Source of the DNA: Tissierella pigra
GTDB taxonomy: Bacteria > Bacillota > Clostridia > Tissierellales > Tissierellaceae
Direction: 5' to 3'
Length of the DNA: 64,000 nt
Assembly (NCBI RefSeq): GCF_009695605.1
Contig: NZ_VUNQ01000001.1
Coordinates: 1-64,000 of the forward strand
In this document: positions 4,389-34,804 of the stretch, one piece after another
Position numbering within the stretch: position 1 is the stretch's first letter
How the letters are laid out: the number at the start of each line of letters is the position of its first letter
Notes under the pieces: model-generated
What the model was told of the DNA's origin: nothing
Database searches by the model: none
What the model saw: only the letters and a program-made list of their open reading frames with translations
Position numbers and translations under genes: made by a program

Positions 4389-7022
4389 ATGAAAAAAATT
4401 GGACTACATGAAATAAGAAAAGAATTTTTAGACTTTTTTAGGGAAAAAGAACATTTAGTTGCACCTAGTTTTTCCCTTGTACCTAAAAATGATAAATCTT
4501 TACTATTAATTGGAGCTGGTATGGCTCCATTAAAAAAATATTTTACAGGAGAACAAACACCACCTAATAAAAGAATGGCCACTTGTCAAAAATGTATTAG
4601 AACAGGTGATATAGATAATGTAGGTAAAACTGATAGACATGCAACTTTCTTTGAAATGCTAGGTAACTTTTCCTTTGGAGACTATTTCAAAAAAGAAGCT
4701 ACTGCATGGGCGTGGGAATTTTTAAACAAAAGAATGGAAATTCCAGAAGAAAATTTATGGGTAACAATATATGAAGATGATGATGAGGCTTTTGAAATAT
4801 GGAATAAAGATGTTGGCGTTTCAGCTGAAAGAATAGTTAGATTGGGAAAAGAAGATAACTTTTGGGAATTGGAAGTAGGACCATCAGGACCTTGTTCAGA
4901 AATATATGTAGATAGAGGACAAAAGCATGGCTGTGGATGTCCAGACTGTAAACCAGGATGTGAATGTGATAGATTTATTGAGGTATGGAATTTAGTATTT
5001 ACTCAATTCGATAAGGATGAAAAGGGAGTGTACCATCCATTACCTAAGCCAAATATAGATACAGGTATGGGACTTGAGAGGATTACCTGTGTAATGGAAG
5101 GTGCAAAGACTATATTTGATATTGAAGCCATTAGAGAAATATTAAGAAAAGTAGAAGAAGTTGCGGAAGTTGATTATGGGAAGGATCCTAAAAAAGATGA
5201 ATCCATAAGAGTAATTACAGATCATACAAGAGCTATGACTTTTCTAGTATCGGATGGAGTACTGCCTAGTAATGAAGGAAGAGGTTATGTACTTAGAAGA
5301 CTGATTCGTAGGGCAGCAAGACATGGTAAACTTTTAGGTATAGAAAAAGCTTTCTTGAGTTCTGTAGTAGAGGTTTTAATCAACTCATGGCAAATAGAGT
5401 ATCCAGATTTAAAAACAAGAGAAGAACAGATTAAGAAGATAATTAAGGCAGAAGAAGACAAATTCCAAGAGACTATTCATCAAGGATTATCAATATTGGA
5501 AGGTTATATTGAAGAAATAAAAAATAAAGATGCGAAAGTGTTAAGTGGAGAAAAAGCATTTAAATTATATGATACTTATGGTTTCCCGTTGGATTTAACA
5601 AAAGAAATTCTTGAGGAAAAATCATTAGAGGTAGACGAAGAAGAATTCAATAGGAATATGGAAGAACAAAGAAATAGAGCAAGACGTGCTAGAGAAGAAG
5701 GAGATAGTGGATGGTCAAGTAACAGTGAAGAAGATATATTTGGAAATTTAAAAACCATATTTAGAGGTTATGAAAAGATAAATATTGTATCGGAAGTAAC
5801 TGGATTATTTTCTAATAATGAAAAAGTAGAAAGTCTGACTGTCGATGAAGAAGGGATAATCATATTAAACGAATCCCCTTTCTATGGAGAGTCTGGAGGA
5901 CAATTGGGAGACACAGGAATTATAGAAAGTTCTAACTTTAAAGCTAAAGTATTAGATACTAAACATTCAGGAGAGCATTTAATTCATATAATAAAGATAA
6001 TAGAGGGAGAAGCAAGAGTAGGAGATAAAGTAATAGCCAACGTAGATGAAAATAGAAGGAACTCCATTAGAAGAAACCACTCAGCAACCCATCTTCTTCA
6101 TAGAGCATTAAAAGATGTACTAGGTGAACATGTTAATCAAGCAGGTTCCATTGTAATGCCCAATAGATTAAGGTTTGACTTTACTCACTTTGAAGGAGTA
6201 ACACAAGAAGAACTGAAAGAAATTGAAAAAATAGTCAACTCTAAAATCTTAGATAGCCTAGAAGTAGTTACTATAGAGACATCTTTAACTAAGGCTCAAG
6301 AAATGGGAGTTGTAGGATTATTTGAAGATAAATATAAAGATGAAGTAAGAGTTTTAAAAATTGGGAACTATTCACAAGAGTTATGTGGGGGAACTCATGT
6401 ATTTAATACTGCAAATATAGGGATGTTCAAAATAGTTTCAGAATCAAGTATTGCTTCAGGAGTAAGAAGAATAGAGGCCATAACTGGCGAAGCTGTATAT
6501 AATTATTTAAACCAAGTAGAAAATGAAATAGATGAAATAGCTATTATGTTAAAGGCTAATAAAAATAATCTATTGGACAAAGTTAAAGTCCTAACTGAAG
6601 ATATAAAAGATAAAGAAAAAGAAATAGAATCTCTTAAAGGTAAAATGGCATCATCTATTGCAGATAAAATATTATCAATGAAGGTGGAAATAGAGGGAAT
6701 ATCATTAATTGCTGAAAAAGTAGATAATTTAGATATGAACGGTTTAAGAAACTTAGGCGATGAAATAAGAAATCGATTAGGAACAGGAGTAGTAGTTCTT
6801 GGAAGTGTGAAAAATGATAAACTTTCTTTTATAGCAATGGTAACAAAAGATTTAACAAATAAGGGAATCCATGCTGGAAACATAATAAAAGAAGTTGCAG
6901 GTAGAACTGGAGGCGGTGGCGGAGGCAAACCAGATATGGCCCAAGCTGGTGGTAAGGATATTACTAAAATAGGGGAAGCTTTAGCCATAGTTCCTGATTT
7001 AATTCGTTCTCAAATAAAATAA
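4389..7022 (+). CDS. alaS: Alanyl-tRNA synthetase
   Basis: 877 aa from the ATG at 4389, which follows AAAGAGGTG; the in-frame ATG at 4341 lies in the leader and has no ribosome site. Charges tRNA-Ala and edits mischarged Ser/Gly. The class II catalytic core is N-terminal (ATFFEMLGNFSFGDYFK and RGYVLRRLIRRAARHG). The editing domain has HSATHLLH (about residue 563) and the zinc motif CGGTHV (about 666). The C-terminal C-Ala domain has the Gly-rich RTGGGGGGKPDMAQAGG signature. Full length and intact. Confidence 0.97.
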   Translation: MKKIGLHEIRKEFLDFFREKEHLVAPSFSLVPKNDKSLLLIGAGMAPLKKYFTGEQTPPNKRMATCQKCIRTGDIDNVGKTDRHATFFEMLGNFSFGDYFKKEATAWAWEFLNKRMEIPEENLWVTIYEDDDEAFEIWNKDVGVSAERIVRLGKEDNFWELEVGPSGPCSEIYVDRGQKHGCGCPDCKPGCECDRFIEVWNLVFTQFDKDEKGVYHPLPKPNIDTGMGLERITCVMEGAKTIFDIEAIREILRKVEEVAEVDYGKDPKKDESIRVITDHTRAMTFLVSDGVLPSNEGRGYVLRRLIRRAARHGKLLGIEKAFLSSVVEVLINSWQIEYPDLKTREEQIKKIIKAEEDKFQETIHQGLSILEGYIEEIKNKDAKVLSGEKAFKLYDTYGFPLDLTKEILEEKSLEVDEEEFNRNMEEQRNRARRAREEGDSGWSSNSEEDIFGNLKTIFRGYEKINIVSEVTGLFSNNEKVESLTVDEEGIIILNESPFYGESGGQLGDTGIIESSNFKAKVLDTKHSGEHLIHIIKIIEGEARVGDKVIANVDENRRNSIRRNHSATHLLHRALKDVLGEHVNQAGSIVMPNRLRFDFTHFEGVTQEELKEIEKIVNSKILDSLEVVTIETSLTKAQEMGVVGLFEDKYKDEVRVLKIGNYSQELCGGTHVFNTANIGMFKIVSESSIASGVRRIEAITGEAVYNYLNQVENEIDEIAIMLKANKNNLLDKVKVLTEDIKDKEKEIESLKGKMASSIADKILSMKVEIEGISLIAEKVDNLDMNGLRNLGDEIRNRLGTGVVVLGSVKNDKLSFIAMVTKDLTNKGIHAGNIIKEVAGRTGGGGGGKPDMAQAGGKDITKIGEALAIVPDLIRSQIK

Positions 7023-7027
7023 TGAAT

Positions 7028-7062
7028 GAAATAAATATTAGTCTATGACTAATATTTATTTC
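7028..7062 (+). terminator. Perfect 16-bp stem-loop after alaS
   Basis: A perfect inverted repeat with a TAT loop (GAAATAAATATTAGTC and its complement). The 3' arm ends in a T-rich segment but there is no long separate T-run. Placed 6 bases after the alaS stop, it most likely ends alaS transcription. Confidence 0.75.
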
Positions 7063-7191
7063 TTATAAAGATATAGAAAAACTTTGGATTTATATTTATA
7101 TATAATTTTTAATATAGTACTGTAATAGAAACTTTCTTTATTACCAAAGTATAATATGTGGTATAATAATAGTATAATAGGGGGTGTTTGT

Positions 7192-7446
7192 GTGAATAAT
7201 AATTTAAATGAAACTATGAAGTTTGAAGTACCAAAGGATAAACAAAGCTCAGTAAGAAATATAATTTTATCTGTATTTTCATCTTTGGAGGAAAAAGGAT
7301 ATGATCCAGTTAATCAGATAATTGGCTATATGCTATCAGGAGATCCATCCTATATTACTAGTCACAACAATGCCAGATCCACCATATGTAGTATAGAAAG
7401 AGATGAATTATTAGAAGAATTGTTGAGAACTTACTTGAAGAATTAA
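7192..7446 (+). CDS. IreB family regulatory phosphoprotein (UPF0297)
   Basis: 84 aa from the GTG at 7192 behind AGGGGGTG, which equals the usual family length; an upstream in-frame ATG at 7156 has no ribosome site. It carries the family signature [20 protein letters not shown] and a C-terminal [13 protein letters not shown] helix. In enterococci IreB is phosphorylated by the PASTA kinase IreK and restrains cephalosporin resistance. The Thr targets are near the N-terminus; here T9 (NETMKF) is a candidate. In other Firmicutes it is next to ruvX and the DUF1292 gene, as it nearly is here. Confidence 0.9.
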
Positions 7447-7468
7447 GGATTTCTAAGGGAGAATTAAT

Positions 7469-9511
7469 GTGAAAGTAAGAAAGCTTTTATTATTTTTTAT
7501 ATTGCTTATAATTATAATACCGAGTATATCTTTTGGGGCTAAGGATAATAAAAAAGTATATTTAATAGTAGTAAATAAACTTACCTTAAAAGATATAGAA
7601 ACTATGGAAAAATTAAAGGATATAATAAAAGAAGGAAGTATTGGACTAATGAATACTAGAGGTACTTCAGGATATAGCGGTGCCGAAAGCTTTCTTACAA
7701 TTAATTCTTCAGAAAAGTCTTATGCAAACTATAGTAGTATTGATTTTAAAACTATGGACGATGGTAAAATAGTAAATCGTTCTTTTAGTAGATTGATTAA
7801 TTTAAATGAAAATAATAAATATACACCTTATTTAGGTGCAATTGGCGATAATTTACATAGTAAAGGGCTTAAAACAGCCATATATGGAAATAGCAATTTA
7901 GAAGATATGCAATTAAACACTTCAGCCTTAATCCCCATGGATTCTAGAGGTTTGATTGATTATGGAAATATAGATAATATAACTATTGAAACTGAGGACT
8001 ATCCATTTCTTATAAAAACAGATTATAGCAAAATGTTAAAGGAAGTTGAAAATAGCCTTGGAGATTTAATTGTCGTAGATACAGGAGATATAGAGAGAAT
8101 TTATAGATATAAAGATTATGTATCTAATGAAGAATTTAAAATGATACGAAAAGAGATCTTATTAGATATAGATAGGTTTATTGAAAACTTAATTAAAGGT
8201 TTAAGTAAAGAAAATTCTTTTGTTATAATTACAAGTCCTAATAGTGGGGATATGACAATTGATAGTAATAGTAAATTGTCTCCGATTATACTTTGGGGAA
8301 ATGGAGTAGAAAATGGAACGTTAACATCTCAAACAACTAAAAAGGACAATATAGTTTCTAATATAGATATTGGTCCAACTATTATGGATTTTTTCGGAGC
8401 ATCTACAGACAATATGTCTGGAAATAAAATTAACTCAATTAGGAAAAATATAAAATTAATAGATCTTATGAAAGAAAACAATCAAATTAATACTGTATCT
8501 AAGGTAAGATATAATACATTATATTATTATGGGTTATTTTCCATGATATCTCTGGGAATAGTAATTATTTTGATTGTTGTCAAGGTCAAGCTTTCAGAGG
8601 TGGCTAAAAAATATATTAAGGTATTATTTGGAATGGTAATTATTTTACCTACCGTTTTTAATTTTCTATCTATACTTAGACTAGAAAGTGTTTATAGTTT
8701 TACTTTGTTTTTATTATTATTTATATTGGTTTCTATATTTATTTTATGGTTAACTAAAAAAAGCAGTAATCAAATTATGTATATTAGCGGAGTTTCTATT
8801 TTTATAATAATTTCTGATTTGATTTTTAAGGGAAATATAATCAAATATTCAGTTTTATCCTATGATCCAACAATAGGGGCTAGGTACTATGGTATAGGAA
8901 ATGAAATGGTGGGCTTTTTTTTAGGATCTATAACTATCTTTTCCATAAATATATTGAGAAAATATAAGAGAAAGATAATACCACTGATATTATTGATTTT
9001 AGGTACCATATTAGTTGGACATCCAAGATACGGTGCCAATGTTGGTGGAACTATGGCCTTTATAATGGCTTTAGTTTTTTATATTATGGAAATATTCAAT
9101 AAGGAATTAAATATAAAAAGGTTATTAATTTCTTTACTGTTAATAGTATTTTTAGTTTTCGTAATGGGTTATATAGATATTAAGATTAACTCAAATACCA
9201 CTCATTTAGGAAATACATTGTTACTTGTTAGAAAAAATGGATTATATTATTTAAGGAATGTAATCTTTAGAAAAATTCTTATGAATATAAAATTAGTAGG
9301 TAATTCTTTTTGGACGTATTTATTGTTAATAAATATGACTTTTCATAGTGTTATATTTGGCAACAGAAAAGATAATACTGATTGGATGGGTAGAGTAGCA
9401 GGAATAGCAGGAGCTATAGGTGGTTTTTTATTAAATGACTCAGGACTAATTTTAACTGCCATATGTATGAATTTAATCAGCACAGAGTTATATTTAGATT
9501 ATATAGAGTAA
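7469..9511 (+). CDS. Membrane protein with alkaline-phosphatase-superfamily ectodomain
   Basis: 680 aa, GTG start (the overlapping ATG is followed at once by a stop). Residues 5-23 are a signal peptide (LLLFFILLIIIIPSISFGA). Residues 28-320 resemble the sulfatase/phosphopentomutase fold: FVIITSPNSGD, then SPIILWGNG, then DIGPTIMDFFG, which matches the DIxPTxLxxxG block of that superfamily. From about residue 350 there are around nine membrane segments with conserved-looking YYGIGNEMVGF and GHPRYGANVGG motifs. Likely acts on an envelope or lipid-linked substrate outside the membrane, which is inference. No known gene name recognised. It and the next gene split ireB from ruvX. Confidence 0.65.
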   Translation: MKVRKLLLFFILLIIIIPSISFGAKDNKKVYLIVVNKLTLKDIETMEKLKDIIKEGSIGLMNTRGTSGYSGAESFLTINSSEKSYANYSSIDFKTMDDGKIVNRSFSRLINLNENNKYTPYLGAIGDNLHSKGLKTAIYGNSNLEDMQLNTSALIPMDSRGLIDYGNIDNITIETEDYPFLIKTDYSKMLKEVENSLGDLIVVDTGDIERIYRYKDYVSNEEFKMIRKEILLDIDRFIENLIKGLSKENSFVIITSPNSGDMTIDSNSKLSPIILWGNGVENGTLTSQTTKKDNIVSNIDIGPTIMDFFGASTDNMSGNKINSIRKNIKLIDLMKENNQINTVSKVRYNTLYYYGLFSMISLGIVIILIVVKVKLSEVAKKYIKVLFGMVIILPTVFNFLSILRLESVYSFTLFLLLFILVSIFILWLTKKSSNQIMYISGVSIFIIISDLIFKGNIIKYSVLSYDPTIGARYYGIGNEMVGFFLGSITIFSINILRKYKRKIIPLILLILGTILVGHPRYGANVGGTMAFIMALVFYIMEIFNKELNIKRLLISLLLIVFLVFVMGYIDIKINSNTTHLGNTLLLVRKNGLYYLRNVIFRKILMNIKLVGNSFWTYLLLINMTFHSVIFGNRKDNTDWMGRVAGIAGAIGGFLLNDSGLILTAICMNLISTELYLDYIE

Positions 9512-21924: not shown

Positions 21925-23607
21925 ATGGTAAAAAAAAGATTAAAGCTGGGCGAACTTTTACTATACTCTGGAAAAATAACTGAAAAACAATTGAAAGACT
22001 CCTTAGATATTCAAAATAAGTCAGGAAAAAAGTTAGGAGAAATTCTAGTAGAGGAAAAGTTTATTACAGAAGATGAAATTATTGAAATATTAGAATTTCA
22101 ATTGGGAATTCCTCATATAGATTTGAACAAATATGATATAAATAAATCAGTAGTTACATTAATCCCGGAATCTGTAGTAAGGAGATATGAGCTTATAGCA
22201 ATAGATAAAAAGGATAATACAATAATAGTAGCCATGGTAGATCCATTAAATATATTTGCATTAGACGATGTAAAGATCTTTGTGAAATCAGAGATTCAAC
22301 CAGTTATATCCACTAGAGATAACATTTTAAAAGCAATAGATAGGTTTTATAGTAAAGAGTCTACGAAAAAAGTGGTTGAAGAATTTGAAGAAAGTTTTCT
22401 ACCTATTAATACAGATGATTTGGAGGATTCAGAACTATTAGAGGTAACTGCTGCACCAATAGTCAGACTTTTAAACTCACTTATTGAACAAGCAGTGAGA
22501 GAAAAAGCAAGTGATATACATATAGAACCCTATGCCAATGATGTAAGGGTAAGATTTCGGATAGATGGAGATTTAAGAGAAATAACTACATTGAATAAAA
22601 CTAGTCATTCAGGAATAATTACAAGAATAAAGATTATTGGAAAAATGAATATAGCAGAAAAAAGAATACCTCAAGATGGTAGAGTAGAGGCTAAAATAAA
22701 TGGAAAAGAAATAGATATGAGAATATCTACATTGCCTACAGTATATGGAGAAAAAATTGTAATTAGGCTTCTTGATAGAACCAATTTTATGTTTACAAAG
22801 GAAAATATAGGATTTAGTAAAAGAGATTTAGAAATTTTTGATAAGATACTAACTCAACCATATGGAATGATTTTAGTTACAGGACCGACTGGTAGTGGCA
22901 AGACTACGACTCTATATACAATATTACAACAGTTAAATAAAATAGAAAAAAATATAATTACTATAGAGGACCCCGTAGAATATAAGCTAAGTGGCATAAA
23001 TCAAGTACAAATAAATCAAAAAACAGGTCTTACATTTGCATCAGGTCTTAGATCTGTTCTTAGACAAGACCCTGATATAGTAATGGTAGGAGAAATTAGA
23101 GATTCTGAAACAGCAGAAATAGCTATTAGGGCTGCAATTACAGGACATCTTGTACTTTCTACACTACATACTAATGATAGTCCATCTACTATTTTAAGAC
23201 TGCTAGATATGGGAATAGAACCATATTTAGCATCATCAGCAATTATAGGTGTAGTATCTCAAAGACTAATTAAATTACTTTGTCCAAAGTGTAAAAGATC
23301 ATATGAGGCAAGTCATATAGAAAAAACAGTTTTAGGAGTAAATATGAATGAAAAGCTAATATTGAATGAAGCTGTAGGATGTAGTTCTTGTAACAATGGA
23401 TATAAAGGAAGAAGAGCAATACATGAATTGATGCCAGTAAATGAAGAAATCAGATATTTAATAGATAATAATACTAATATAGACGAATTGAGAAATAAAG
23501 CCATAGAAAATGGTATGGCTACACTTTTACAATCAGCAGCTAATTTAGTCATAAATGGCGATACTTCCTATGAAGAAGTACTAAGAGTAGGATTTACATT
23601 GGGATAG
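21925..23607 (+). CDS. pilB: Type IV pilus extension ATPase PilB with MshEN domain
   Basis: 560 aa. Residues 5-140 form an MshEN (T2SSE_N) domain with two tandem copies of the cyclic-di-GMP-binding-type motif: LGELLLYSGKITEKQL and LGEILVEEKFITEDEI, each followed by a helix ending in Q. The secretion ATPase core follows, with Walker A GPTGSGKTTT at about 320, the Asp and His boxes (ITIEDPVEY, LSTLHTNDSPST), and a zinc site CPKCKRS with CSSCNNGYKG. It powers pilus growth. First gene of a pilB-pilT-pilC set. Confidence 0.94.
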   Translation: MVKKRLKLGELLLYSGKITEKQLKDSLDIQNKSGKKLGEILVEEKFITEDEIIEILEFQLGIPHIDLNKYDINKSVVTLIPESVVRRYELIAIDKKDNTIIVAMVDPLNIFALDDVKIFVKSEIQPVISTRDNILKAIDRFYSKESTKKVVEEFEESFLPINTDDLEDSELLEVTAAPIVRLLNSLIEQAVREKASDIHIEPYANDVRVRFRIDGDLREITTLNKTSHSGIITRIKIIGKMNIAEKRIPQDGRVEAKINGKEIDMRISTLPTVYGEKIVIRLLDRTNFMFTKENIGFSKRDLEIFDKILTQPYGMILVTGPTGSGKTTTLYTILQQLNKIEKNIITIEDPVEYKLSGINQVQINQKTGLTFASGLRSVLRQDPDIVMVGEIRDSETAEIAIRAAITGHLVLSTLHTNDSPSTILRLLDMGIEPYLASSAIIGVVSQRLIKLLCPKCKRSYEASHIEKTVLGVNMNEKLILNEAVGCSSCNNGYKGRRAIHELMPVNEEIRYLIDNNTNIDELRNKAIENGMATLLQSAANLVINGDTSYEEVLRVGFTLG

Positions 23608-23620
23608 GAGAGATAATAAA

Positions 23621-24673
23621 ATGAACGTAGTAGAATTAGTAAATATAGCAACAGAAAAAAAAGCATCGGATATTCATATAACAGTTGGTACTCCACCTGT
23701 TTTAAGGATCAATGGAGAATTATTAGTCCTTGAAGGTGAAAAATTGATGCCACAAGATACCAAAGCCTTAGTTTATGAAACTTTAGATGAAAGGACAATA
23801 GAGGAATTAGAAGAAAATGGAGAAGTAGACACATCTTTTTCCAGTCCGGGAGTAGGACGATATAGAGTGAACGCATATAAGCAAAGAGGCTCTTATGGTA
23901 TGGCACTTAGGATAATTCCTTTAGAGGTTCCTACCATTGACGAACTGGGACTTCCAGGTGTAGTCAAAGATTTAGCTAGACTTCCTCGTGGACTTATTTT
24001 AGTTACAGGACCTACAGGAAGTGGAAAGTCAACAACCTTAGCTTCTATGATAGATTTAATCAATAAAGAAAAAAAATGTCATATACTAACATTGGAAGAC
24101 CCAATAGAATATCTTCATAAACACAATAAAAGTATAGTAAATCAGAGGGAAATAGGAATAGACTCTAACTCCTTTGCCAACAGCCTAAGAGCTGCACTTC
24201 GTCAAGACCCTGATGTTATACTAGTGGGAGAAATGAGAGATTTAGAGACTATATCCATAGCCATTACAGCAGCGGAAACAGGACATTTAGTATTGTCCAC
24301 TTTACACACAATAGGTTCTGCTAAAACCATAGATAGGATAATAGATGTATTTCCTCCTCACCAGCAGCAACAAGTGAGGGTACAGTTTGCATCAGTAGTT
24401 CAAGCTATAATATCACAACAACTACTGCCTAAGGCAGACGGTAGTGGTAGAACAGCTGCTTTTGAAGTCATGGTAGCAACCTCTGCCATAAGAAACTTAA
24501 TTAGAGAGGAAAAAATACATCAAATAGATACAGCAATCCAAACGGGAGCAAAATTTCAAATGCAAACCATGGATAATTCTTTATTAGATTTATATAAGAA
24601 AGGATTAATAACTAAGGAAATAGCTTTGATGCAGGCCATTAATCAAGATAATATTAAAAAATATATTATTTAG
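23621..24673 (+). CDS. pilT: Type IV pilus retraction ATPase PilT
   Basis: 350 aa. Walker A GPTGSGKSTT at about residue 130, LEDPIEYLH, RQDPDVILVGEMRD, LSTLHTIGSAKT. The C-terminal AIRNLIREEKIHQI block at about 290 is the PilT signature that separates retraction ATPases from PilB and GspE. Its presence implies retractable pili and twitching or DNA-uptake-type motion, unlike a ComG-only competence system. Lies 13 bases after pilB. Confidence 0.95.
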   Translation: MNVVELVNIATEKKASDIHITVGTPPVLRINGELLVLEGEKLMPQDTKALVYETLDERTIEELEENGEVDTSFSSPGVGRYRVNAYKQRGSYGMALRIIPLEVPTIDELGLPGVVKDLARLPRGLILVTGPTGSGKSTTLASMIDLINKEKKCHILTLEDPIEYLHKHNKSIVNQREIGIDSNSFANSLRAALRQDPDVILVGEMRDLETISIAITAAETGHLVLSTLHTIGSAKTIDRIIDVFPPHQQQQVRVQFASVVQAIISQQLLPKADGSGRTAAFEVMVATSAIRNLIREEKIHQIDTAIQTGAKFQMQTMDNSLLDLYKKGLITKEIALMQAINQDNIKKYII

Positions 24674-24685
24674 GATGTGGTATCT

Positions 24686-25888
24686 ATGATATATAAATAT
24701 AAAGCAGTATCTCAAGATACAGGACAAATCGTAGAAGGGTTTTTTGAAGGGGAAGAAGAATCTGATGTGTTGGCTATGATAAAAGGTAATAATTATGTGC
24801 CTATATTTATTGAAAAAGATATAGAATTAGATGGGAAAATAGATTTATTCTCTAAAAAAGTAAAAAAGAGAGATTTAGCAGTATTTTGCAGGCAGTTTTA
24901 TACAATGTTAGATGCTGGAATAGGTATAATAAAATGTTTGGAAATATTGGAAAAACAATCTGAAAATAAAACCTTAGTAAAATCTTTAGGTGGAATTTAT
25001 GAGGATGTGCAAAAAGGATTTACATTATCAGAAAGCATGAGAAAACATAAAAAAATATTTCCTCCACTCCTTATAAATATGGTTCAAGCAGGAGAAGTAA
25101 GTGGAAATTTAGATACTATAATGGAAAGAATGGCAGTTCATTTTGAAAAGGAAAATAAATTGGAACAAAAAATTAAATCAGCCATGATATATCCAATAAT
25201 ACTTAGTATAGTATCTATAGCAGTAGTTATATTTTTACTTGTGGCAGTAATGCCTACATTTATAGGAATGTTTGAAAGTAGTGGAGAGGTCTTGCCAGTA
25301 CCTACACAGATACTATTGAATATAAGTAATTGGCTTACGGAGTTTTGGTATTTGTTCTTAGGAGTAGTAATTTTATCTATAACTGGATTTATGTTATATA
25401 AAGAAACTCCATCTGGAAAAACAACATTAGATAATATAAAGCTAAAGATACCAATAGTAAAGGATACTAATGTAAAAATAATAACATCTAGATTTACAAG
25501 AACATTGTCAACTCTTATGTCCAGTGGTATACCACTATTGGAGTCCATAGAAGTAGTAGGTAGAGTAGTGGGGAATAAAGTAGTAGAAAATAAATTGGAA
25601 AAATCCATAGAAGATATAAGAAAAGGAGTAACTTTGTCAAGAGCAGTAAATGAAATGAAACTATTTCCACCAATGGTAGATTCCATGATAAAAGTAGGTG
25701 AGGAATCTGGAGCCTTAGATGATATCTTATATAAGACAGCAGATTTCTATGATGATGAAGTAGAAGTAGCCTTACAAAGGATGACGACCTTAATGGAACC
25801 CATGATGTTAGTAATCATGGCTATAATAATAGGTTTTATAGTAATAGCTATGACGATGCCAATGTTTGACATGGTAAATACCATTTGA
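24686..25888 (+). CDS. pilC: Type IV pilus inner-membrane platform protein PilC
   Basis: 400 aa from the ATG at 24686; an in-frame GTG at 24677 is an alternative. Two T2SSF repeats, each with the cytoplasmic helical domain (FCRQFYTMLDAGIGIIKCLE and FTRTLSTLMSSGIPLLESIE). Three membrane segments: after residue 165, around 220 and near the C-terminus. It couples the ATPases to pilin extraction. Translationally close to pilT (12 bases). Confidence 0.94.
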   Translation: MIYKYKAVSQDTGQIVEGFFEGEEESDVLAMIKGNNYVPIFIEKDIELDGKIDLFSKKVKKRDLAVFCRQFYTMLDAGIGIIKCLEILEKQSENKTLVKSLGGIYEDVQKGFTLSESMRKHKKIFPPLLINMVQAGEVSGNLDTIMERMAVHFEKENKLEQKIKSAMIYPIILSIVSIAVVIFLLVAVMPTFIGMFESSGEVLPVPTQILLNISNWLTEFWYLFLGVVILSITGFMLYKETPSGKTTLDNIKLKIPIVKDTNVKIITSRFTRTLSTLMSSGIPLLESIEVVGRVVGNKVVENKLEKSIEDIRKGVTLSRAVNEMKLFPPMVDSMIKVGEESGALDDILYKTADFYDDEVEVALQRMTTLMEPMMLVIMAIIIGFIVIAMTMPMFDMVNTI

Positions 25889-26230: not shown

Positions 26231-26641
26231 ATGTTGCAATGGTTAAGTAGGAAAATGAAGAAAAGAAAAGGTTTTACTTTAGTGGAATTAGTAGTGGTTA
26301 TTGCGATATTGGGGATTTTAGCAGGAATTGCTGTACCAAAATTAGGATCATCAAAAAATACTGCCAAGATAGCTGCTCATAATACTAATATTAGGATATT
26401 AAAAAGTACAGCAGCTATGTATTTAGCAGATTATCCTAATACAGAGAAGACAGAATTAACAGAGGAAGACTTAAAAGACTATCTTGATGGAGAAAAATTT
26501 CCAAAAGTTCCAAGTGGATTAAAAAATGATGAAGATAAGCCTATAGATGAAAAATATACAATTACAATAGATGAAAAAGGAAATATAATTATTGAACCAA
26601 AGGAAATTACACCAAAAGAAGAAACCAATTCAGGTGACTAA
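26231..26641 (+). CDS. pilA: Major type IV pilin (PilA-like)
   Basis: 136-aa prepilin with a 14-residue basic leader, then cleavage at G-F and the class III signature FTLVELVVVIAILGILAG with the conserved Glu5. The C-terminal part is acidic and has no Cys pair, so no disulfide-bonded D-loop. Lies 100 bases downstream of the c-di-GMP riboswitch and is the first gene of the operon, as expected for the major pilin. AAGGGGGAAAAG ribosome site. Followed by a small stem-loop. Confidence 0.93.
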   Translation: MLQWLSRKMKKRKGFTLVELVVVIAILGILAGIAVPKLGSSKNTAKIAAHNTNIRILKSTAAMYLADYPNTEKTELTEEDLKDYLDGEKFPKVPSGLKNDEDKPIDEKYTITIDEKGNIIIEPKEITPKEETNSGD

Positions 26642-26710: not shown

Positions 26711-27469
26711 ATGGTTATACTAATTTTCCTATATGGATTATTAATAGGTTCATTTCTAAATGTGTGTATATACAGGATACCAAGAGAGGAGAATATTGCT
26801 TATCCAGCATCTCATTGTCCTAATTGCAATACAAACTTGAAATGGTACAATTTAATACCAATATTTAGTTTTATAGTTCAAAGGGGGAAATGTGGATACT
26901 GCAGGGAGGAAATCTCCTTTCAGTATCCTATAGTTGAACTATTAAATACTATTACATATTTATTTATCTATACAAAGTATGGTTTAACATTAGAATTTTT
27001 CTTTTATGCAGTTATTTTTTCTATACTTATTATAATTACCTTAATAGACTTAAAGGAAATGATTATTCCAGATATTTTAGTAATATTGATCTTAGTAATT
27101 ACTATTGTCTATAAAATATTTTCATACATATTATATAATAAATCACCACAGTTTTTAAATAGTATAGGAGGCCTAGTTTTATCTTCTTTACTATTTAGCA
27201 TAATTATTTTAGTTTCACAGGGTGGAATGGGTGGAGGAGATCTTACTTTAATTGGTTCACTAGGTTTTATCTTAGGAACCAAGAAAATATTTCTAACTAT
27301 ATTTCTATCCTTTATATTAGGAGCAATTATATCAGTTCTTTTATTAATTACTAAAATTAAGGGAAGAAAGGACCCTATTCCTTTTGGACCTTTTATTATA
27401 TTGGGATTTTTTATAACAGTATTTTGGGGAGAAGGGTTGATAGGTTGGTATTGGAATTTATTTTTCTAA
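26711..27469 (+). CDS. pilD: Prepilin peptidase / N-methyltransferase PilD
   Basis: 252 aa, about seven membrane segments. The N-terminal cytoplasmic loop has two CxxC pairs (CPNCNTNLKW and KCGYC) as in bifunctional prepilin peptidases. The aspartyl-protease sites are the first Asp in ITLIDLKEMIIPD and the second in GGMGGGDLTLIG (GxGD). It cleaves all the prepilins encoded in this locus. AAAGGAGC ribosome site. Confidence 0.94.
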   Translation: MVILIFLYGLLIGSFLNVCIYRIPREENIAYPASHCPNCNTNLKWYNLIPIFSFIVQRGKCGYCREEISFQYPIVELLNTITYLFIYTKYGLTLEFFFYAVIFSILIIITLIDLKEMIIPDILVILILVITIVYKIFSYILYNKSPQFLNSIGGLVLSSLLFSIIILVSQGGMGGGDLTLIGSLGFILGTKKIFLTIFLSFILGAIISVLLLITKIKGRKDPIPFGPFIILGFFITVFWGEGLIGWYWNLFF

Positions 27470-29699: not shown

Positions 29700-29735
29700 A
29701 AATCTTTCCATTAAGGAACTAAGGAGGTAATGCCA

Positions 29736-30800
29736 TTGAAGTTACCATCAATAAGTAGAAAAACTCTATCTATGGACTTTGGTTCTAAAGAAATCAAAGT
29801 TATAGAAGGGAAATATACAAAAGATAACGTACAAATATTAAAAGCTTTCACAATATCAGTAGAACCTCATTTTTATCTAAATGGAGAAATATTAAATAAA
29901 GATGTATTGGCCACAAGCATAAAAAATAAATTAAAGGAAAATAAAATATCTACTACTATTACATATGGTATTATCAATAGTTCGAAAGTAATTACTAGGG
30001 AAATAATCATCCCAAAGGTTTCTCTTAAGGAGCTTAAATCTGTTGTTAGTTATCAGGTAGCTGATTATCTTCCGATTAATATAGATGATTATGTGGTTAA
30101 ATATTTAAATCTAGGAAATATACATGAAGGAGATATGGAAAAGATAAAGATTCTTTTACTAGCTATACCAAACAATATTGTTCTAAGTCATTTAGAGCTA
30201 TTGAAAGATTCTGGTCTTAAGCCAGAAATTCTAGACTATCAAGGTAATGCCATAGCAAAATTATTAAACTATAATGACTTAGTAAATAGTGACTATAACA
30301 CTAGGGATTTAGTAATAGCTTCAGTAGATATAGGATATAGTAACTCTAAACTTACCATAATAAAAAATGGGAAAATAGAAGTAACTAGGGTTATTGATAC
30401 TGGAGGTAAAGCAATGTATGACAATATATTTTCATTTTTTGATTACTCCATAGAAGATGTAGAAGAGAAATTAGTTGAGATAAAAAGTTTAAATAATTTT
30501 CAAGATGAGTTTTCAGATAATTATAGATTATCAAACATTGTAAGGACAAGCTTGATTGACCTTTGTGAAAAAATAGAAGTAGTATTTAGATATTATAATA
30601 CTAGAGAAACAGGAAATATGATAAATTATATTTTACTTCAAGGGGGATTTTCAAACATTAAGGAGATAGACAATTTGTTTTCCACCTACTTTAATATTCC
30701 AACTATGCAGTTATCCACTTTAGATAAGATTAATTGGAGTGAAAATTTATCTAAATATGCCAATGCCATTGGTGGATTAATTAGGATTGATGAGGTGTAA
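29736..30800 (+). CDS. pilM: Type IV pilus actin-like ATPase PilM
   Basis: 354 aa from the TTG at 29736, 8 bases after AAGGAGG; an ATG at 29730 is too close to that site. Actin fold: TLSMDFGSKEIKVIEG (phosphate 1), VASVDIGYSNSKLTI (phosphate 2), RVIDTGGKAM and ILLQGGFSNIKEI (adenosine). It binds the cytoplasmic tail of PilN to form the alignment complex with PilO. Directly followed by pilN. Confidence 0.92.
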   Translation: MKLPSISRKTLSMDFGSKEIKVIEGKYTKDNVQILKAFTISVEPHFYLNGEILNKDVLATSIKNKLKENKISTTITYGIINSSKVITREIIIPKVSLKELKSVVSYQVADYLPINIDDYVVKYLNLGNIHEGDMEKIKILLLAIPNNIVLSHLELLKDSGLKPEILDYQGNAIAKLLNYNDLVNSDYNTRDLVIASVDIGYSNSKLTIIKNGKIEVTRVIDTGGKAMYDNIFSFFDYSIEDVEEKLVEIKSLNNFQDEFSDNYRLSNIVRTSLIDLCEKIEVVFRYYNTRETGNMINYILLQGGFSNIKEIDNLFSTYFNIPTMQLSTLDKINWSENLSKYANAIGGLIRIDEV

Positions 30801-30801
30801 G

Positions 30802-31383
30802 ATGAGAGACTTAAACTTTTTTGAAAGTTATATAGAAAAAAGAGAATTCAAACTAGATAAAAAGCTAATATATTTTTCTTTATTAAGCCTTTTTTTCTTT
30901 TCTTTAATAGTATATACAGTTTATTATTCAATAATGATTAGCAAAGAAACTAAAATAGTAAATACTCTTAAACTTACTGTAGAAGACCCTAATATTTTAA
31001 AAAAAGTAGAGGAAATCAAGGAAAAAGAAATAGAAGTAAATGAATTTAAAATGTCAGTTGATAAAATTAAAGTATTAGATAAAATCATTCAAGAAAGAGA
31101 TAAAATTGATGAAGTCCTTTTAAATAAGATCAATGATAATATACCAGAGGATTTGTTTCTTACTTCCCTTAGTATTCAAAATGGAGAAATTTATATAGTT
31201 GGTATATCCAGAGATAAATGGTCTATAGCAGAGTTTCAAAAAGGATTGGAATCTCTAGATGATTATGAAGAGATATTTGTATCTAATATTTCATTGCAAA
31301 ATGATTATTATAATTTTAGTCTGAACATTACATTAGGGAGTGTTGATAATGGAGAAATTGGGGAAGAAGAAACTGAAAACTAG
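30802..31383 (+). CDS. pilN: Type IV pilus assembly protein PilN-like
   Basis: 193 aa from the ATG at 30802, behind GAGGTG. The N-terminus MRDLNFFESYIEKREF gives the short cytoplasmic motif that PilM binds (compare INLLP in Gram-negatives). One membrane segment lies at residues 20-42 (LIYFSLLSLFFFSLIVYTVY). A coiled coil and a ferredoxin-like fold (DLFLTSLSIQNGEIYIVGIS) follow. Sequence match to PilN is by layout and position. It overlaps the pilO start by 35 bases. Confidence 0.82.
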   Translation: MRDLNFFESYIEKREFKLDKKLIYFSLLSLFFFSLIVYTVYYSIMISKETKIVNTLKLTVEDPNILKKVEEIKEKEIEVNEFKMSVDKIKVLDKIIQERDKIDEVLLNKINDNIPEDLFLTSLSIQNGEIYIVGISRDKWSIAEFQKGLESLDDYEEIFVSNISLQNDYYNFSLNITLGSVDNGEIGEEETEN

Positions 31384-32746
31384 AGAACTAACTAAGAATG
31401 AAAAATTTCTTTTAAGTATTTTAGTCACTATTTTAGTAGTTTGGGGAAGTTACAGATTTGTTATTACACCACTGGACCATAAGTTATCAAGCCTTAATGC
31501 ACAAAGAATAAGATATGAAGAAAAAATTGATGAAATAAACACTATTCTAAGAAATGAAGAGACTATTAACAATAATTGGGATATTTTACATAAAGAAAAA
31601 GAAAATATTATATCTAAATACTTTCCAAAATTAGACCAAGCTCAGATAATTTACTTATTAAATGATTTAGTGGAGAAAGAAACTGTATCTGTTGTAGATA
31701 TGAATTTCAATAGACCAAATTATGAAGATATTGGAGAATTTCAAGTGAAAAATATGGATATATCTATTCCATATAAAGGTACTTATGATGGAATTGTAGA
31801 TGTTATAAGAGCATTGAAAACCAGCCCTAGAAAAATATTATTAGACAGTGTAACTATGGATAGAGATAATGAGGGCAAACTAAACGGAAATATGTCTTTA
31901 AAGGTATATAGTTTAGATGGAATAACTAATACAGATAATGATGTGGTATATATAGATACTGAAAAATTGGAACAAAAGATTACTCCTTTTTCACCTTACA
32001 AAGATTATACTGATAGTATTATAGAAGTTGATACTCCATTAGAGGAGATAGTAGAAATAAAAGAAGTCAATCATTATATTGAAGAAACTCTATTGGATTT
32101 TGAAAATAGAAATATGTTTTTCTTACCTTCTCAAGAGTTGGTTAAAGGAAATGTAGAACAATCTACAAAATCAAAGTCTAAAAAATATTCCCTAAGATTT
32201 GAATATAATATTGTGGCAGTAGAAGAAGAAAATCGTGGATATATAGATCTTACTAGAAATAATATAAATATTAAATATCCACCACAGACCATAGGGTTAT
32301 GGGTTTATTCTTATGATTATTCTCCTGCCACTGTTGGGTTAGCTTTTAGAGGACAAATGGGAGAGGAGATATTAGTTTCTATTACTGAAGGAATCAGTTG
32401 GACTGGATGGAAGTATATAGAAACTAATCCACCAGAAGATTTAAGTTTATATCCATTAAAATTAGAAAGTCTATATCTGGAAATACCTAAAAATAGGGAA
32501 GATTATGGCGTGATTTTAATAGATAAGTTACAGGCTGTATATGAAAGAAATCTTGATGAAAATGGCAAAGATGTAAGTGTTGGTGATTATATATTCCATG
32601 TGGTAAAAGAAGGAGATACTCCAGAGAAAATAAGCCAATTATATTATGGAACTAGTAACTATAAAAGTGAAATATTAAAATTAAATGAATTAAAATCAAC
32701 TGATACATTACCCACTGGAAAAGTTCTGGTACTAAAAAAGAGATAA
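31349..32746 (+). CDS. PilO-like protein fused to a jelly-roll-like domain and a LysM domain
   Basis: 465 aa from the ATG at 31349 behind GGGAG. Residues 21-40 are a membrane helix. Residues 42-190 form the PilO coiled-coil and ferredoxin-like region (KYFPKLDQAQIIYLLNDLV; YKGTYDGIVDVIRALK). Residues 248-398 resemble the C-terminal carbohydrate-binding-like module of clostridial phosphodiester glycosidases (IGLWVYSYDYSP, ISWTGWKYIE, LKLESLYLEIP, GVILIDKLQAVY). Residues 414-463 form a LysM (YIFHVVKEGDTPEKISQLYY, then LPTGKVLVLKKR). PilO is normally about 200 aa; the extra modules would contact peptidoglycan or wall polymers. Confidence 0.8.
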   Translation: MEKLGKKKLKTRELTKNEKFLLSILVTILVVWGSYRFVITPLDHKLSSLNAQRIRYEEKIDEINTILRNEETINNNWDILHKEKENIISKYFPKLDQAQIIYLLNDLVEKETVSVVDMNFNRPNYEDIGEFQVKNMDISIPYKGTYDGIVDVIRALKTSPRKILLDSVTMDRDNEGKLNGNMSLKVYSLDGITNTDNDVVYIDTEKLEQKITPFSPYKDYTDSIIEVDTPLEEIVEIKEVNHYIEETLLDFENRNMFFLPSQELVKGNVEQSTKSKSKKYSLRFEYNIVAVEEENRGYIDLTRNNINIKYPPQTIGLWVYSYDYSPATVGLAFRGQMGEEILVSITEGISWTGWKYIETNPPEDLSLYPLKLESLYLEIPKNREDYGVILIDKLQAVYERNLDENGKDVSVGDYIFHVVKEGDTPEKISQLYYGTSNYKSEILKLNELKSTDTLPTGKVLVLKKR

Positions 32747-32758
32747 GAAGGTGAAACC

Positions 32759-34804
32759 ATGAGAAAATATAGTCTAATAATCTATACATTAGTATTTGTC
32801 ATATTATTTAGTTCTATAAATGTATTTGCGGATACTAATTCTGAAGATATTAAAAAAGCATTTGAAGAAGGTTTTAAAATAGGAGAGAAAATTGGCAAAA
32901 ACCAAGCACTAAAAAATAATATAGATAATAAATTTCCTTTCTATAATGAGATTAAACCTACTAGATATGATGTAAAGGTAGAAAATAATGATTATTTAAA
33001 AGGTAAGGAAGAAGAATTTATAGATAGTTTCATAAATGGCTATTTAGAAGGACATGAGAAAGGTTATAAAGAAAACATAAAATCAAATGATGATGGAACT
33101 ACAATAATTTATGGTTCGGAAGACTTTGGTACTATAATGGGTAGAATAGATGGGTATATTGCATACAAATCAGGAAGCAGGAATAATTGGGAAAGATATA
33201 TTCCTAGTGATAGGGAATTAATTAATATGTTTGAGCTTAATAGGGAATCTAGAGAACATAGAAATTGTTTTATAGATGACTTTAAAAAATCTTATAGAAT
33301 ATCCTTTGAAGCTGCATTCCAAGTGGCTAAATTGGGAGAAAGAGATTATTCATATGAGGAGGGGCTAAAAGATGGAGATGAATATGCTAGAAATTTAGCT
33401 GATTTAAATGCTAGAAAAGATTATTTACTAGGTCTTAGGAATGATTATAAAAGAAATATGCCTTCCAATAAAGAAATAATTACTATGTTTAATCTAAATA
33501 AAGAATCCGGTGAATATAGAGATGCTTTTTTAGCAGGATTTGAATTTGGTAGAAGTACATCTGGAGGTAAAACTGAAGGTGGATATATACTTTATTATAA
33601 CGATGCCTATAGAAAAGCCAATAGAGAAACTACAGAAACACCTGATTTAAATGGTGAAGAAGGCGGAAGAACCATAGGTAAAATGAAGGGCGAATATGCA
33701 GCAATTATGGATATTACCATGGATAAGACCAATTTATGGAGTAGTCATAAGGTAAATGATGAAATTATTATAAATGAATATGGACTTCAGTTTCAATCTG
33801 AAAATTATAGATTGGCTTTTATAATTGGATATTGGAATGAATTTATGAAATCTTATAATGAGACGTACAAGAAACTTCAACAGGATAGAAATAGAGTGAA
33901 AACCCATACTGAAAAGATTTCAATTGATGGCAAGGATAATATTGGTATACCAGATGATGATAAATTTTTAGTAGATATTGAGGCTGGAACTTATTATAAT
34001 GATGCTATTGTAACCATAGATAGTATACCGATCACCTATGTAAATCCTAATTCTACAAGACATACACAAGCTTCAGGAGTCTATGGATTAAAGGTTATGA
34101 ATCTAGCAAACACATTTGATAGAAATAAAAGGATTACCATTAAATTTAAGTCCTATGGTAATGATATTAAATATGGTATATACAAATATCATTATAATAA
34201 ATGGATTTACATACCATCAAAACAAGAAGGAGATTACTTAGTTGCAGATATAAACTTAAATAATATAGACTTAACTGGAAATATTTATTCTGTAAGAGTT
34301 GATAATGAACTGCCAATATTTCATGAATCTAGAGGACATTGGGCTAGAGATGAAATCAATACTTATGTTAAGAGAGAAATCATATATGGATACCCTGATA
34401 AATCTTTTAAGCCAGATAAGGAAATTTCAAGAGGAGAGTTTGTGACGATGCTAAGTAGATTATATGATTGGTATCCCCCATATGACTCTACAAATATTAT
34501 TAAGTTTAAGGACTATAAAGAATTTGGCTATGCAGAAAAGGCTATATCCTATGCAACTTACTATAAAATAGTAAATGGATATATTGATAATACTTTTAAG
34601 CCACATGATTCAATTACTTATAAAGAGGTTGAGATTATAATGTCGAGGGTATTAAAAAATAAAGATTTCAAATGGGATTATTTTGCTAATAAAATGATAT
34701 ATGAGAAAAAGGTTCGCTCAAGGAGTAAAGATAGTATGAATAATAAAATAACTAGAGCAGAATTCACATTCTTGCTGTATCAATTAAATGAGTGGCAATA
34801 TTAA
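32759..34804 (+). CDS. Secreted S-layer-homology protein with three internal repeats, in the pilus operon
   Basis: 681 aa. Signal peptide cleaved after about residue 24 (INVFA). Three related repeats of about 60 residues at 124-185, 202-265 and 304-369; they share a Gly/Tyr-rich start, an aromatic, then P-S-x-x-E-I-I-x-M-F-x-L-N-x-E-S-x-x-Y-R-x-A-F. A beta-rich part follows at 398-515, then SLH domains at 521-570 (SRGE) and 580-632 and a weak third at 638-678 (TRAE), which would bind pyruvylated wall polymer. It may form or anchor the pilus exit through the wall; inference from context. Confidence 0.78.
   Translation: MRKYSLIIYTLVFVILFSSINVFADTNSEDIKKAFEEGFKIGEKIGKNQALKNNIDNKFPFYNEIKPTRYDVKVENNDYLKGKEEEFIDSFINGYLEGHEKGYKENIKSNDDGTTIIYGSEDFGTIMGRIDGYIAYKSGSRNNWERYIPSDRELINMFELNRESREHRNCFIDDFKKSYRISFEAAFQVAKLGERDYSYEEGLKDGDEYARNLADLNARKDYLLGLRNDYKRNMPSNKEIITMFNLNKESGEYRDAFLAGFEFGRSTSGGKTEGGYILYYNDAYRKANRETTETPDLNGEEGGRTIGKMKGEYAAIMDITMDKTNLWSSHKVNDEIIINEYGLQFQSENYRLAFIIGYWNEFMKSYNETYKKLQQDRNRVKTHTEKISIDGKDNIGIPDDDKFLVDIEAGTYYNDAIVTIDSIPITYVNPNSTRHTQASGVYGLKVMNLANTFDRNKRITIKFKSYGNDIKYGIYKYHYNKWIYIPSKQEGDYLVADINLNNIDLTGNIYSVRVDNELPIFHESRGHWARDEINTYVKREIIYGYPDKSFKPDKEISRGEFVTMLSRLYDWYPPYDSTNIIKFKDYKEFGYAEKAISYATYYKIVNGYIDNTFKPHDSITYKEVEIIMSRVLKNKDFKWDYFANKMIYEKKVRSRSKDSMNNKITRAEFTFLLYQLNEWQY

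Follow-up and report, generated by a model that had tools for sequence, protein, structure and literature searches.

The window analyzed here, a 64,000-nucleotide stretch of Tissierella pigra DNA, contains a type IV pilus operon whose predicted PilO continues beyond its core with a carbohydrate-binding-module (CBM)-like β-sandwich and a LysM domain, and which carries a gene for an SLH-domain protein directly downstream of pilO. We consider it fairly probable that this PilO serves a monoderm type IVa pilus as its wall-anchored base, with SLH domains supplied in trans or in cis and the whole standing in for PilP, PilQ, and TsaP. Such a base may explain how single-membrane bacteria hold pili without the outer-membrane pore of Gram-negative bacteria. 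The protein is organized as follows:

31349..32746, + strand: PilO with CBM-like module and LysM, 465 aa (Pfam, AlphaFold, and relatives)
31394..31621, + strand: transmembrane (TM) helix running into a coiled coil, residues 16-91 (full-length AlphaFold model)
31622..31918, + strand: ferredoxin-like PilO core, residues 92-190 (α-β-β-α-β-β topology; profile match to a solved PilO)
31919..32068, + strand: disordered, length-variable tether, residues 191-240 (pLDDT <50 over most of it)
32069..32548, + strand: CBM-like β-sandwich, residues 241-400 (AlphaFold; homology to the module of a NAGPA protein)
32588..32743, + strand: LysM, residues 414-465 (Pfam E = 4e-7; predicted fold)

The pilO ORF is intact in a single frame, from the ATG at 31349 to the stop codon ending at 32746. 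Its product is assigned to PilO by sequence similarity, by the predicted TM helix, coiled coil, and ferredoxin-like fold, and by its position in a pilM-pilN-pilO operon; from this membership and the gene order, we infer a place in the PilM-PilN-PilO ring. Pfam PilO matched the window protein weakly (E = 0.02, residues 58-188, below the cut-off) and reached E ≤ 0.05 in 17 of 28 relatives. A profile built from the relatives' cores found the solved PilO of Myxococcus (3jc8) with E = 2.7e-6 over a 145-position stretch. The full-length AlphaFold model, which was built with three full-length rows only and is of moderate confidence (pLDDT 72), places a helix at residues 16-91 and an α-β-β-α-β-β core of ferredoxin-like type at 95-188; pLDDT falls below 50 in the linker that follows (190-234). 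A model of residues 241-465 (pLDDT 87.6) shows a β-sandwich at 241-400 and a β-αα-β LysM at 414-463. An earlier note, made from the sequence alone, had read this ORF as PilO with an added module and a LysM. Pfam, the profile, and AlphaFold bore out these identities, and AlphaFold gave a β-sandwich and a LysM for the segments the note had named (residues 248-398 and 414-463).

The operon is complete, comprising pilB, pilT, pilC, a pilin gene, pilD, further pilin genes, pilM, pilN, pilO, and the SLH gene, followed by more pilin genes and then by aroK and efp. Genes without a family match were named by reading their sequence.

21925..23607, + strand: PilB extension ATPase (read from sequence)
23621..24673, + strand: PilT retraction ATPase (T2SSE E = 2e-49; the name PilT from size and sequence)
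24677..25888, + strand: PilC platform protein (read from sequence)
26231..26641, + strand: pilin with N-methylation motif (Pfam N_methyl E = 1.5e-10)
26711..27469, + strand: PilD prepilin peptidase (read from sequence)
29730..30800, + strand: PilM (Pfam PilM_2 E = 2.9e-30)
30802..31383, + strand: PilN, overlapping the start of pilO (Pfam PilN E = 3.7e-12)
32759..34804, + strand: SLH-domain protein, 681 aa, probable partner (SLH E = 2.7e-22; conserved neighbor)

The SLH gene starts 12 nt past pilO, and the N terminus of its product resembles a secretion signal. The SLH domains, which stand at the end of the protein, scored 78.9 bits against a cut-off of 20.8; the protein also has GxxxGY-rich segments and a recurring MFxLNxES motif (residues 157 and 243), and one of its relatives showed weak similarity to Yae1_N. 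In agreement with the earlier premise that a monoderm has no PilQ, no PilQ secretin scored over the cut-off in 35 genomes (that of the window and 34 relatives), and control genomes were positive. A single ORF encodes both PilM and PilN at L172, L174, L177, L178, L250, and L251; at L129:6246-8388, the SLH gene is immediately followed by a second PilM-PilN ORF, this one fused, and by a short PilO; and the pilus operon of G035 (L081:4767-6155 and 6131-7585) encodes pilin-like proteins with apparent VWA and LamG-like C-terminal domains.

The module was compared with other proteins and folds. A 953-aa NAGPA-type phosphodiester glycosidase of the same genome (L076:5293-8154) matched PilO residues 251-402 with E = 4e-11, showing that the previously noticed likeness to a module found C terminally in clostridial phosphodiester glycosidases reflects true homology. 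The best fold match of the sandwich was FlaA1 (9cyn; Z 16.9, 3.2 Å, 163 residues); CBM11 (Z 14.1, 3.0 Å, 151 residues), CBM27, CBM22, CBM4, and CBM30 also matched. The sandwich profile reached E of about 1e-5 against FlaA chains, and the window protein gave no Pfam FlaA (PF04620) match. By its modeled structure, the sandwich belongs to the CBM11/27/22/4-like β-sandwich fold; a sugar-binding role is putative, as the fold alone shows no function.

The C-terminal domain (residues 417-462) is identified as LysM by a score over the curated Pfam cut-off (30.3 bits against 20.9) together with its predicted β-αα-β fold. The nearest LysM domains in the PDB, of YG type, belong to the potassium-binding Kbp and to a contractile-injection protein, which by name are not peptidoglycan anchors, and this weakens the case for the LysM as a wall anchor. 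Mean identity to the relatives was 56% in the module, 53% in the LysM, 52% in the PilO core, and 26% in the linker, and the spacing from core to module ranged from 41 to 86 aa. Residues W351, G353, and W354 are conserved also in independently found PilOs. The invariance of the motif WTGWKYIE was discarded as a sampling artifact, since this stretch had served as a search pattern.

A search across Clostridia, suggested in the earlier note, showed that the three-part PilO recurs at 56 loci in about 55 genomes. These belong to the family of the window, to several other families of its order, and, within the class, to additional families. Among named organisms, Tissierella sp. P1 and Tissierella praeacuta are the nearest relatives. 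The alignment of relatives found no relatives in a viral collection. Natural variants were also detected: PilO with LysM and no module (G013 and G376), PilO with module and no LysM (the G039 group, G066, and many PilOs of a second order), and PilO with a double LysM (G329, G439, and G519). Since the LysM is missing from so many module-bearing PilOs of the second order, it is not essential. Two genomes, G008 and G048, have kept module and LysM without an SLH gene, and many Clostridia have a plain PilO with none of these domains. In G088 (L158:3680-3860), a 17-nt tandem duplication puts PilO and module-LysM into separate frames, either a fission or an assembly error. About a dozen PilOs of approximately 400 aa from other families end in a different domain (KPxxSDLPTVxLGK...YVYAD...RPRV; L164, L166, L167, L172, L173, L174, L176-L180, and L215). 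This domain had no Pfam match in the three proteins scanned and is possibly another wall or partner domain; the idea that it is a divergent form of the module found no support (hhalign probability 0.7%).

The presence of the module is associated with the SLH gene. Of the 106 loci that could be tested, 71 have the module and 35 lack it; a trans SLH gene was found at 64 of the former and at none of the latter, counts that are inflated for the second order, whose loci were found with an SLH-bearing query. The gene lay within 60 nt of pilO at 58 of the 64 loci. In the order of the window, where the sample was drawn with a PilO query having no SLH and thus blind to it, the corresponding counts were 42/48 and 0/18. 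On the PilM-PilN-PilO tree, 4.7 of 6 independent pairs showed a joint change of module and SLH gene, and none showed a change in opposite directions (p 0.03-0.06), which is marginal support for the association. The LysM was considered as the tracking trait and rejected: the raw counts in the order of the window were strong (SLH gene at 41/44 loci with LysM and 1/22 without), but the median p on the tree was 0.375, and the module tracks the SLH gene better. Because the sandwich tracks a partner protein, it may bind protein instead of sugar.

In other lineages, the two parts are joined. At 16 loci of the second order, downstream of pilM and pilN, PilO continues straight into SLH domains within a single protein of approximately 400 aa; the type case reached E = 8e-13 against Pfam SLH. 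In the stretch read, these loci showed neither module nor LysM and no further gene for an SLH protein. The fusions need one change of state on the PilM-PilN-PilO tree, and sister lineages in the same order have the module and a separate SLH gene. The joining of the same two parts in one protein is a classical sign of functional linkage.

The gene csaB makes the pyruvylated secondary wall polymer, which is the ligand of SLH domains. In the first order, csaB was present in 22 of 22 SLH-carrying genomes tested (in G007 as a partial match at a contig edge) and in 6 of 14 noncarriers; it was missing from the other eight, which include G008, G013, and the G039 group, as well as G028 with only 2.2 kb of downstream sequence. 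All tested SLH carriers of the second order also have it. In the genome of the window, CsaB scored 309 bits against a cut-off of 213.

Fourteen module positions are conserved in PilO and not in NAGPA modules. Among 45 SLH-linked modules, R296 is kept in 43, Y324 in 41, and Y310 in 38. All three are changed in the six modules without an SLH gene (6/6), which represent four lineages: G048, G008, the G039 group, and the deep-branching G066. G022, the sister of G008, has the SLH gene and all 14 conserved positions. As G048 retains csaB, the loss of the patch there follows the SLH gene and not the polymer. Conservation of the patch is confined to the crown clade, which makes it a lead, not proof.

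These data bear on a different reading, which we regard as rather unlikely: that the module is a true CBM on wall glycan and the SLH protein acts independently, without contact to PilO. It would fit the CBM families that are its best solved matches besides FlaA1, the PilO-specific conserved aromatics Y310, Y322, Y324, and Y368, which could line a sugar site, and the coincidence of csaB loss with decay in G008 and the G039 group. It sits poorly with the loss of the SLH gene together with R296, Y310, and Y324 in the csaB-positive G048, with the restriction of the trans SLH gene to module-bearing PilOs, and with PilOs that have SLH in cis and no module.

Returning to the wall-anchored base, we infer the following binding, docking, and load-bearing steps. 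The N terminus, TM helix, coiled coil, and ferredoxin-like core of PilO would sit in the PilM-PilN-PilO ring, and the flexible linker of approximately 50 residues would allow both the CBM-like module and LysM to extend to the wall. The LysM probably holds glycan strands, and the module most likely docks the coencoded SLH protein (or itself sits on a wall polymer). The SLH domains of the partner would bind the pyruvylated secondary wall polymer, so that the motor may be held at two wall sites of different chemistry and the retraction load passed to the wall. SLH domains fused onto PilO would do the same job in other lineages, and the wall link would take over the role of PilP, PilQ, and TsaP in diderms. 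The earlier suggestion of a coupling between the PilO complex and the wall through these additions is strengthened by independent evidence from genomes, namely the SLH gene next to pilO, the fusions of PilO with SLH, and the distribution of csaB; its sugar-binding side is less secure, as the sandwich may bind protein. More tentatively, the PilMNO base of Clostridia may have gained wall anchors repeatedly, by a CBM-like module, with LysM or lacking it, recruiting an SLH protein or by PilO-SLH fusion, replacing PilP, PilQ, and TsaP; PilO and the SLH protein could then form a wall collar that the pilus passes through and retracts against. The candidate anchors can now be named (LysM, CBM-like module, and SLH partner or fusion), natural deletion and fusion variants are at hand, and candidate residues and a partner gene are available for testing anchoring.

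We find it improbable that the LysM and the module bring PilO near peptidoglycan hydrolases or synthesis sites and so open a gap for the pilus without bearing load. The thick wall must be crossed by the pilus, and translocation across peptidoglycan has been offered as an alternative role (Pelicic 2019, PMC6916266); however, no hydrolase domain or gene was seen in the interval from pilM to the pilins that follow the SLH gene, and the coupling to SLH suggests static anchoring. A role of the C-terminal domains in adhesion or the surface layer at the outer wall, and not in the motor, seems very unlikely. Surface proteins often carry SLH and CBM-like domains, and FlaA1, the best fold match, sheaths a filament, but the domains considered here belong to an inner-ring protein that crosses the membrane once, and their tether spans only approximately 50 residues. 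A functionless chance fusion or a sequencing error joining two genes, for which the split halves and duplication in G088 might speak, is refuted by the same single ORF in relatives at 36-81% identity and by strong conservation of the intact fusion in dozens of independent assemblies.

The idea of wall anchoring itself is not new. Pelicic 2019 (PMC6916266) described a large extra C terminus in monoderm PilO, speculated on crossing of or anchoring to the peptidoglycan or wall, and listed how a pilus is held in and passes through the thick single-membrane wall as an open question, suspecting the odd PilO. A 2026 paper (PMC13319060) describes a PilO with LysM encoded close to archaellum genes in three Chloroflexota, including Litorilinea aerophila. 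The earlier statement that no PilO of this architecture had been described therefore holds for the full three-part protein and not for PilO-LysM or the extended monoderm PilO. The open-library literature yielded no description of PilO with a CBM-like module, of the SLH partner, or of PilO-SLH fusions; these are the new elements.

Compared with known systems, the closest solved fold to the module is that of spirochete FlaA1 (9cyn), which is a free flagellar sheath protein without PilO or LysM. NAGPA-type glycosidases of Bacillota have a homologous β-sandwich module (about 22-34% identity); the window PilO lacks their catalytic domain, and PilO modules keep their own F258, R296, Y310, Y324, and Y368. 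In Chloroflexota PilO-LysM, the LysM is likewise proposed to bind peptidoglycan, but the protein is linked to the archaellum and not to a pilus operon, and the available part of the source mentions no CBM-like module or SLH partner (PMC13319060). The PilO of Streptococcus sanguinis is likewise PilO-like only N terminally and has a large extra C terminus suggested to be a wall anchor, in which that study did not recognize a CBM-like module, LysM, or SLH (PMC6916266). In diderm pili, TsaP and FimV likewise tie a pilus component to peptidoglycan by LysM; they are separate proteins at the secretin or the pole, whereas the window LysM is on PilO itself. The diderm type IVa pilus has a PilQ secretin, unlike the window genome, in which none reached the cut-off. 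Type IVa PilO (Pfam PF04350; 3jc8) and the window protein have in common the N-terminal helix, the coiled coil, the ferredoxin-like core, and the order pilM-pilN-pilO, but known diderm PilO ends after the core, whereas the window PilO continues with the linker, the CBM-like module, and the LysM.
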